DNA from: Ignatzschineria sp. RMDPL8A
Lineage (GTDB): Bacteria; Pseudomonadota; Gammaproteobacteria; Cardiobacteriales; Wohlfahrtiimonadaceae
Direction: 5' to 3'
DNA: 64,000 nucleotides
NCBI RefSeq assembly: GCF_029815055.1
Contig: NZ_JAPPWA010000002.1
Location: 310,001 to 374,000 of the forward strand
In this document: piece after piece, positions 34,450 through 37,201 of the stretch
How positions within the stretch are numbered: the first letter of the stretch is position 1
Layout of the letters: each line of letters opens with the position of its first letter
Translations under genes and position numbers: made by a program
The notes under the pieces: generated by a model
The model's input: only the letters and a program-made list of their open reading frames with translations
The model's database searches: none
Told to the model about the DNA's origin: nothing

Positions 34450-35283
34450 ATGCAAGACAATGTCCCATCGTATGATTTTTTTATCGAGCCCGTTTTACAG
34501 GTGTTGGCAAACTGTCCCGAAGGGGTGCCTGCGCGCGAGGTGCATGAGGCGGCAGCGGACTATTTAGATTTGAGCCATGATGCGCGTTTAGAGACGGTCT
34601 CAAGTGGGCAAGCGATCTATAAAAATCGTTCGGGATGGGCGCATGATCGCTTAAAACGCGCCGGTTTATCGGAGAGTATTTCACGCGGCGTATGGTGCTT
34701 AACGGAAAAGGGGCGGGATTGGGTAAAAACGCACAGGTTTCCATTAAGTAAAGAGACGCGTCGTCATCTGGCGTTTGATTTTTTAGAGGTTAAATTAACC
34801 GATGAGGAAGGCGCGGATGTATCTCCAATTAATTATGCCAATACTCAAACGGATCGCAGTGAATCGCTCAGTGTGGAAAGCCCTGATGATCGCTTGGAAG
34901 AGGCAGTTCGCACCATTAAAGAGACAGTAGCAAGTGAATTGCTGACCATTTTAAAAGAGGTCTCGCCCCAACGATTTGAACTAATTGTGCTCGATCGTTT
35001 AGGGCTTGAAAAGGTGTATGTTCAAGCGAAACGTTGGCAAGATACGGTGGGGCGACCAGAGATTCAAGCCTTTTACGGGGCACTTGCAGGGCAAAAAGCA
35101 AAACGCGGCGTGTTTATTACGACCTCATCTTACTCAAAACAGGCGATCGAATTTGCACAATCGGTAGAAGGGGTAGTGTTAATCGACGGGGTGCAACTAG
35201 TGTATTTAATGATGGATGCGGAGGTTGGCGTGAGCTCGCGCTCGATTAAACTTCCCGCGATCGATTCTGATTATTTTGATTAG
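34450..35283 (+). CDS. mrr: Mrr-like restriction protein with catalytic segment deleted
   Basis: Mrr is a type IV restriction nuclease that cuts methylated DNA. The 277-residue product has the winged-helix N-terminal domain (FIEPVL, REVHEAAAD, YKNRSGWAHDRLKRAGL, about 1-95) and the C-terminal Mrr_cat remainder LGLEKVYVQAKRWQ, RPEIQAFYGALAGQKAKRGVFITTS. Compared with the E. coli protein as I remember it (about 304 residues), roughly 30 residues are missing exactly after VLD (residue 182). They are the part that holds the GGTGDGGIDG strand with the catalytic aspartates. The Lys of QAKRW is kept. The frame is otherwise intact, so this is probably a nuclease-dead DNA-binding remnant. Confidence 0.85.
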   Translation: MQDNVPSYDFFIEPVLQVLANCPEGVPAREVHEAAADYLDLSHDARLETVSSGQAIYKNRSGWAHDRLKRAGLSESISRGVWCLTEKGRDWVKTHRFPLSKETRRHLAFDFLEVKLTDEEGADVSPINYANTQTDRSESLSVESPDDRLEEAVRTIKETVASELLTILKEVSPQRFELIVLDRLGLEKVYVQAKRWQDTVGRPEIQAFYGALAGQKAKRGVFITTSSYSKQAIEFAQSVEGVVLIDGVQLVYLMMDAEVGVSSRSIKLPAIDSDYFD

Positions 35284-35386: not shown

Positions 35387-36241
35387 TTACCAGCCGCGCT
35401 CTTGCATGCGCTCTTCTGGGTTTAATTTGCTGATTTCTAAACCGCGCATGGGTTCGCCTAAATCTTTTGAGAGTTCTGCGATGAGTGCGTAGTCTTGATA
35501 GTTTTCAGTGGCTTTAACGATGGCACGTGCGAATTTTTCAGGGTTTTCTGATTTGAAAATACCTGATCCAACGAATACGCCATCCGCGCCCAATTCCATC
35601 ATCAGTGCCGCGTCTGCAGGAGTTGCAACGCCGCCCGCTGCGAAGTTTGCTACCGGTAGACGGCCGTGCGCTTTGATCTGTAAAAGCACTTCATACGGTG
35701 CACCAAGATCTTTTGCGTAGGTCATGATTTCATCGTTATTCATATGGAGAAGTTTACGCACTTGCGCGTTCACTTTACGCATATGACGTACCGCTTCGAC
35801 GATGTTTCCGGTTCCGGGTTCACCTTTGGTACGGAGCATTTTCGCGCCTTCACCTAAACGGCGAGCCGCTTCCCCAAGATCGCGACATCCGCATACAAAT
35901 GGGACTTTAAAGTCGCTTTTTAAGAGGTGAAATTCTTCATCCGCTGGGGTTAATACTTCACTTTCGTCAAGATAGTGAACGCCCATCGATTCAAGAACGC
36001 GCGCTTCAACAATATGGCCGATACGAGCTTTAGCCATCACGGGAATCGATACTGCACCTAATACTTCTTCAATAATGCGCGGATCCGCCATACGGGCAAC
36101 GCCGCCCGCTTTACGAATGTCTGAAGGAACGCGCTCTAACGCCATGACTGCCACTGCGCCGGCATCTTGAGCGATTTTAGCTTGTTCCGCATTGATCACG
36201 TCCATGATCACGCCGCCATTTTTGATAATTGAATCAGCCAT
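35387..36241 (-). CDS. pdxS: Pyridoxal 5'-phosphate synthase, PdxS lyase subunit
   Basis: Makes PLP from ribose 5-phosphate, glyceraldehyde 3-phosphate and ammonia (DXP-independent pathway); normally forms a dodecamer decorated by the glutaminase PdxT. The 284-residue protein has the key Asp14 (GVIMDV), Lys71 (VMAKARIGH) and Lys139 ([10 protein letters not shown]), and the [16 protein letters not shown] phosphate site. No pdxT lies beside it: a terminator and the convergent mrr follow directly. Without PdxT the subunit could use free ammonia or a distant pdxT. The ATG is 13 bases after GAGG. Confidence 0.96.
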
Positions 36242-36404
36242 CTGTTTTTATTTTCCTCTGTAATCGAATGAAAGAAAGAGCGATATTGCTCAATAAAATC
36301 AAAAACCACTCATCATAGTAAAAGATCTATGGTATAGCGTCAATTGCGAGGCTTTGAAATTCTTAAAAAGAGTGAAAAATTGCATAGTTTGGTTTATAAG
36401 AGTG

Positions 36405-36439
36405 TTATCCGTAGAGTTATCCACAGGAAATGTGGATAA
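36405..36439. promoter_or_regulatory. Cluster of three DnaA-box sequences
   Basis: Within the 315-base divergent spacer of pdxS and the LysE-type gene (36242-36556) lie TTATCCGTA (36405-36413), a consensus TTATCCACA (36417-36425), and a consensus inverted copy TGTGGATAA (36431-36439). The last two form a 9-bp inverted repeat with a GGAAA centre and no T-run, so it is not a terminator. The flanking 36290-36400 is AT-rich. dnaA, dnaN, gidA and par genes are not nearby. Nothing else was identified in the spacer. Confidence 0.55.
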
Positions 36440-36556
36440 GATTGACAGTAAATCGCGGTGGAAAGAAGGGTAAATATTATCGGATGAGATCGTCATTTCC
36501 TTTACACTATAAACGTCGTGAATCAATTGGCATGGAACGCATCAATAAGGAGAGCT

Positions 36557-37201
36557 ATGTTTGCAATTTTACTCAGCATTATCGGGATTCATTTAATGGC
36601 GCTTATTACGCCCGGGCCTGACTTTTTCTTTATCTCGCAGACGGCGGCGCGTTTTTCGCGTAAAGAGAGTTTTAAAGCGGTGCTCGGGATCACCGTTGGG
36701 GTGATGATTTGGGCAGGGCTTGCGCTGCTTGGACTCCATTTTGTCCTCGAAAAATTTGTCTGGCTACGCCATATTATTGTGATTCTCGGGGCACTCTATC
36801 TGAGTTATCTTGCGGTGCAGTTACTCCGTTCGGCCTTTTCCAAACAGGTGGGCGCGGAAGAGGTGAGTTTTTTACCGGAAGCGGGGCAACATCTCTTTTT
36901 AAAAGGGCTCTTGACCAATCTCGCTAATCCCAAAGCGATCGCCTATTTTGCCAGCGTTTTTTCGATGTTTGTCAGTGATGGCATGGGCACTGAGACGAAA
37001 CTTGCGATCTTTGCGGTGGTGGCAATTGAGACGCTTATTTGGTTTTGCATTGTGATCCTTGTGTTTTCCCTTCCGGCGATGAAGCGGGCGTATAAAAAAG
37101 TGATGCGGGTGATCGATGGGGTGGCCGGGGTGATCTTTTCAGGCTTTGCGATCTACTTTCTCTATCAAGAGTTTAAAAGTTTCTTTTTAAATCAAGCGTA
37201 A
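36557..37201 (+). CDS. LysE/RhtB family amino-acid exporter
   Basis: A 214-residue inner-membrane exporter with six hydrophobic segments. The family hallmark P-G-P-D-F in helix 1 (ALITPGPDFFFISQTA) is present, followed by GITVGVMIWAGLALLG, and the mid-protein KGLLTNLANPKAIAYF matches the RhtB signature F..G...N..NPK. It probably exports threonine, homoserine or a related amino acid; substrate not predictable. ATG 36557 is chosen over 36518 because AAGGAG is six bases upstream. Confidence 0.9.
   Translation: MFAILLSIIGIHLMALITPGPDFFFISQTAARFSRKESFKAVLGITVGVMIWAGLALLGLHFVLEKFVWLRHIIVILGALYLSYLAVQLLRSAFSKQVGAEEVSFLPEAGQHLFLKGLLTNLANPKAIAYFASVFSMFVSDGMGTETKLAIFAVVAIETLIWFCIVILVFSLPAMKRAYKKVMRVIDGVAGVIFSGFAIYFLYQEFKSFFLNQA

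Follow-up and report, generated by a model that had tools for sequence, protein, structure and literature searches.

The three DnaA boxes at positions 36405–36439 of the window (the 64,000-nucleotide stretch analysed here, C2:310001–374000 of a 2,175,527-base assembly in three contigs) very probably form, judging from their structure, a member of the DARS (DnaA-reactivating sequence) core kind, and by analogy with E. coli it is likely that this core works as a DARS1-like site at which DnaA is recharged. The first-pass annotation of this DNA was right to see a non-random group of DnaA boxes that should not be called oriC, but the roles which it offered omitted the best match, a DARS core.

The earlier placing of three candidate boxes within 36405–36439 was correct (they lie at 36405–36413, 36417–36425 and 36431–36439), as was the description of two of them as perfect and inverted relative to each other. 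Box I (36431–36439) is on the minus strand, where it reads TTATCCACA, a perfect box that appears as TGTGGATAA on the plus strand, and, with 5 nt between them, it stands head to head with box II (36417–36425, plus strand), which is also a perfect TTATCCACA. Box III (36405–36413, plus strand, TTATCCGTA) points in the same direction as box II and differs from TTWTNCACA by 2 mismatches. On the minus strand the core reads TTATCCACATTTCCTGTGGATAACTCTACGGATAA, with box I (36439–36431) followed by boxes II (36425–36417) and III (36413–36405), both reversed, and with box starts at 0, +14 and +26. On the same strand the spacer between boxes I and II (36426–36430) is TTTCC and that between boxes II and III (36414–36416) is CTC. 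The site is intergenic, which favours a DARS core; it lies in the AT-rich gap (36242–36556) between the divergent pdxS-like and RhtC-like genes, and the longest stop-free frame across it spans 80 codons. The AT-rich DNA reported next to the boxes is indeed present, with a GC content of 0.304 at 36290–36404 and 0.352 at 36242–36559, compared with 0.459 for the window. A second assembly of the species (G057) carries the same core without change, but its flanks are also 98% identical, and the comparison therefore carries little information.

What is unusual at this site is the arrangement of the boxes and not the number of single boxes. Allowing 1 mismatch, the window contains 61 single boxes against 49.6 expected, a count reached in 9 of 100 shuffles and thus no enrichment. 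The window contains one convergent TTATNCACA pair with a spacer of 0–20, whereas 400 dinucleotide shuffles of it gave none. Across the whole 2.18-Mb assembly TTATCCACA occurs 56 times, against 9 for a backward-read control, and only two convergent perfect pairs with a spacer of 0–14 are present, the window pair and a pair with spacer 6 at C1:169647. The shuffles, together with the class-wide geometry described below, bear out the earlier judgement that this spacing is unlikely by chance. They also make it very improbable that the site is a relic or a chance group of boxes without function, a reading for which the one weak box could be cited. Moreover, core columns are more often invariant than flanks (27–30 of 35 columns against a flank fraction of 0.34–0.45, in five groups of related loci), a contrast inflated by the loci having been picked by the core pattern.

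For comparison with known DARS sites, we took the E. coli MG1655 regions containing DARS1 (L012) and DARS2 (L013). DARS1, in the bioD-uvrB gap, is TTATCCACTATTCCTGTGGATAACCATGTGTATTA (L012:2608–2642), with boxes at 2608 (+), 2622 (−) and 2634 (−), and the rppH-mutH gap contains TTATTCACCTTTTCTGTGGATAGAGTTGTGAAGAA (L013:3136–3170). We take the latter triad to be the DARS2 core; this identification is our own. Two IHF-like sites (+93, +109) and a Fis consensus (+145) agree with the description of DARS2 in the accessible text of PMC4245941, where the core is accompanied by sites for both proteins. The window core, DARS1 and the DARS2-gap core all have the 0/+14/+26 geometry, with box I opposite to boxes II and III, and this identity of offsets, directions and order is a principal argument for a DARS core. 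Equal box spacing in both DARS cores, with the same relative directions, is also described in the part of PMC5742627 available to us.

The likeness to DARS1 extends beyond geometry, as TGTGGATAAC, covering box II and the next base, is identical in the two cores and the spacer between boxes I and II ends in TTCC in both (ATTCC in DARS1, TTTCC in the window), while that of the DARS2-gap core is TTTTC. DARS1 differs in its neighbour genes and in that box III is weaker in the window. E. coli DARS1 requires a stimulating flank of about 50 bp. Around the window core, from −200 to +460, we detected neither an exact Fis consensus nor an IHF match at a threshold of 1 mismatch; at this IHF threshold the scanned stretch at DARS1 likewise gave no match, whereas the same scan found IHF-like and Fis sites at DARS2. 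Because these consensus sites are missing near the window core, a constitutive, DARS1-like action appears likelier than a switched, DARS2-like one.

The same scan bears on the possibility that the boxes titrate DnaA, or act as in datA by binding DnaA and, with IHF, speeding ATP hydrolysis, in either case with no nucleotide exchange. According to the available portion of PMC12371093, DnaA can be titrated by boxes of high affinity that lie elsewhere than in oriC, and datA, as described in the literature, resembles the window site in having DnaA boxes outside oriC. However, datA is a larger box cluster that needs an IHF site, the window core has just three boxes with no IHF match (up to 1 mismatch) nearby, and simple titration would not be expected to keep the head-to-head spacing constant throughout the class. 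We therefore regard either role as improbable.

As a DARS site, the window core would act through ADP-DnaA bound head to head at boxes I and II, with box III helping. The head-to-head contact would loosen ADP, the resulting apo-DnaA would leave and take up ATP, and the ATP-loaded DnaA could then begin the next round at oriC. The accessible text of PMC5742627 identifies the ADP-releasing step with the head-to-head DnaA contact on boxes I and II, and names D269 at DARS1 and L290 at DARS2 as DnaA residues that are needed. The DnaA protein of this genome, identical to E. coli DnaA at 209 of 454 positions in a pairwise alignment, retains D269, R281, R285 and L290, which fits such a role. Four other positions are changed (R227 to K, R245 to G, F46 to I and T435 to S); R227 is named as important at DARS2, and its replacement, together with the differences at F46 and R245, counts against a DARS site, as do the 2 mismatches in box III.

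Searching 185 genomes of the class with the pattern TTATCCACA-N(0–20)-TGTGGATAA, we found a convergent perfect pair in 86, compared with 10 for a divergent control pair, with spacers of at least 9, and 2 for a backward-read control pattern. Among the 75 forward pairs listed, the spacer was 5 in 71, 17 in two, 6 in one and 11 in one, the two pairs with spacer 17 being the I-III pairs of triads. The excess of convergent pairs over both controls in these genomes, and the predominance of spacer 5 among the pairs listed, argue for a DARS core in the window. The third box was then scored in 40 listed places, taken in list order and blind to third box and neighbours, which included 39 spacer-5 pairs. 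In 38 of these 39 a third box (up to 2 mismatches) stood at offset 26 on one side, against at most 7 of 39, and mostly 0–2, at other offsets from 23 to 59; this constancy is a further reason to prefer a DARS core.

The core pattern, run against genome contigs, matched at least 118 stretches, and the 80 titles seen were mostly of Gamma- and Betaproteobacteria, some given just as Proteobacteria, with three metagenome records named otherwise (alphaproteobacterium, Micavibrio and actinobacterium). In the 118 listed cores, positions left free by the pattern were conserved as well, namely the final C of the first spacer (89%) and the middle T of the second (71%), and the third box had G at its second position in 77% and T at its third in 94%. 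The window core has this first-spacer C and second-spacer T, each base of its CTC spacer is the commonest at its position, and its third box is of an A-C variant. Adjacency to oriC was rejected for cores elsewhere, for beside the 118 listed cores we found no match to dnaA, dnaN or rpmH (a short rpmH may be missed), none to mnmG and one to rsmG. Neighbours shared with the E. coli DARS sites were considered and rejected, with one weak ptsP match among the same loci. Further clusters of cores in the genome-contig loci are found near a uracil-DNA glycosylase-like gene (ung; 23 loci, mostly SAR86), HemW-like genes (8) and XseA-like genes (6), all named by eye.

Closer to the window, a strict core pattern matched 8 of 57 relatives, including this genome, and none of the 30 genomes belonging to other genera in the family and order. 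A wide pattern allowing 3 mismatches matched 30 of the 32 genomes of the order, with 112 strand-wise matches (some being one pair read in both directions) against 1 for the reversed pattern. This excess is again in favour of a DARS core, although the need for up to 3 mismatches in other genera is a point against it. Two 3-mismatch matches in this genome were dropped as cores, one at C2:291418 (L087:3019–3053), which lies inside the polA coding region, and a weak one at C2:626687.

We surveyed the genes next to 39 hit regions, from the 10 of 17 family genomes with hits, grouping proteins by blastp and naming representatives by NCBIfam. Genomes of the family hold several such cores each, mostly intergenic. 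A core lies upstream of kdsB in all eight genomes fetched from two other genera, and in the nagZ-typA gap in all five genomes of genus g4, where two (L092 and L094) show double cores 227–260 bp apart beside typA. The yoaA gene adjoins a core in three of the five g4 genomes and in this genome, at C2:865.7 kb, where the core was found by box criteria and not by the wide pattern; this site (L011:5555–5767) comprises two weak cores 178 bp apart. An AbgT-type transporter gene is near a core in this genome (C2:245.6 kb) and one gene farther away in two g4 genomes. Third boxes in the g4 hits are often weak, ending in GGATAA or GGACAA. The recurrence of neighbour genes beside cores between genera is another reason for regarding these as DARS cores.

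In the window, nine proteins between 29.8 and 40.7 kb were compared with Pfam. The core is flanked by a pdxS-like gene of the SOR/SNZ family (35387–36241, minus strand) and by a gene for a LysE-family, RhtC-like exporter (36557–37201, plus strand, with ATG 36557 chosen; searches used 36560–37201), lying 117–152 bp upstream of the exporter ATG. The exporter scores 253 bits against the RhtC model, under the cut-off of 288. An RhtC-like gene whose product is 43–46% identical to that of the window adjoins a core in three of five g4 genomes, the proteins of both genera scoring best to RhtC, under the cut-off, and a GntR-type gene is near the core both in the window and, at 40% identity, in one g4 genome. 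In g4, however, the core follows the 3' end of the exporter gene, whereas in the window it is on the 5' side, and this change of side between the two genera counts against a DARS core. We read the RhtC-like link as a common neighbourhood that was later rearranged, although it could also be coincidence. A gene for an Mrr-family restriction endonuclease (Mrr_N, Mrr_cat; 34450–35283) is also present, one gene away from the core.

Such a position, between two divergent genes, would suit a DnaA-controlled promoter, with DnaA at the core adjusting transcription of the RhtC-like exporter or of pdxS. For pdxS, control of this kind had been proposed previously and is unlikely, as none of 14 pdxS loci in the family's other genera (L056 and L058 being cut by contig ends) contained a core, and we rejected pdxS as a conserved partner of the core. 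A sigma-70-like site for pdxS can be drawn at 36343–36315 on the minus strand, but the gap holds two promoter-like hits, a number at chance level. In addition, cores adjoin many unrelated genes (kdsB, typA, nagZ, yoaA, rsmH, trkH and pepT), and in g4 the core lies at the opposite, 3' end of the gene for the RhtC-like exporter. We consider promoter control at the window core rather unlikely on these grounds.

A regularity in the position of cores concerns priA. Using E. coli PriA as query, we found a homologue in 32 of the 118 listed core loci (L126–L243), and 29 of these 32 loci have the core 109–230 bp upstream of the priA start, in a single orientation in all 29. In a second sample of 40 loci (L268–L307), priA was present in 14, each with the core 43–210 bp upstream and in the same orientation. 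No such core was seen in the 12 kb examined at E. coli priA, and priA of this genome has just the spacer-6 pair (C1:169647–169670, L010:4647–4670) about 0.73 kb upstream. This pair was rejected as a canonical core, given its spacer, the lack of a visible third box and the gene, LemA-like by eye, that stands between it and priA. The regularity at priA would suit control of the gene no less than a set location for a DARS site, and promoter control therefore keeps some probability. In orientation, and approximately in distance, the window core stands to the exporter gene as these cores do to priA.

The part of the literature available to us (PMC4245941, PMC8682772) places conservation of the DARS core in gamma-proteobacteria related to E. 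coli, and in the accessible portions of openly licensed texts we recognised no account of DARS beyond E. coli-like species or near priA. The repeated place of the core upstream of priA is an unexpected lead. Tentatively, and with more doubt than conviction, we propose that the DARS triad is ancient in the class as a whole (Gammaproteobacteria together with the former Betaproteobacteria). Genomes would have several copies, and in many lineages one copy would keep a constant place and a single orientation some 150 bp upstream of priA, which may couple DnaA reactivation to the supply of PriA (replication restart); the window site would then be one of several family-level copies. The E. coli geometry, found in a small genome beside different neighbours and matching a class-wide consensus, suggests that a distant relative of E. 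coli also resets its replication timer by DNA sites of the DARS kind, and would, if true, make DNA-driven release of ADP from DnaA much older and more general. The sequence rule TTATCCACA-N5-TGTGGATAA-N3-third box can list such sites where the DnaA cycle is unstudied.

The position of the site on the chromosome agrees with its not having been called oriC. The dnaA gene is on another contig (C1:22954–24291), and GC-skew analysis, which the first-pass annotation had suggested, placed a change of sign near C2:54.2–55.2 kb, 0.29 Mb from the core. There, a 982-bp gap (C2:54,231–55,212; L009:9231–10212), flanked by genes for an MFS transporter and a pilin-like protein (the latter named by eye), contains five perfect boxes, with negative skew before it and positive skew after it, and is likely to be the oriC of this genome. 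The window core shares with an origin its DnaA boxes beside AT-rich DNA, but has three boxes against these five perfect ones, and the suggestion that it could be part of an origin is weakened accordingly. On the arm with positive skew, the core is separated from the putative oriC by 0.134 of the genome, compared with 0.206 for DARS2 and 0.329 for DARS1 in E. coli, a difference that may count against a DARS site; the other two cores of this genome are at 0.088 and 0.373. A typed gamma consensus for dif, with up to 3 mismatches, matched in one of six genomes, which was not this one, and a second change of skew sign at C2:1.41–1.50 Mb indicates that the arms may be unequal. Seven perfect DnaA boxes in mixed directions also lie within 2.3 kb at L009:15928–18212, a possible titration or datA-like cluster.
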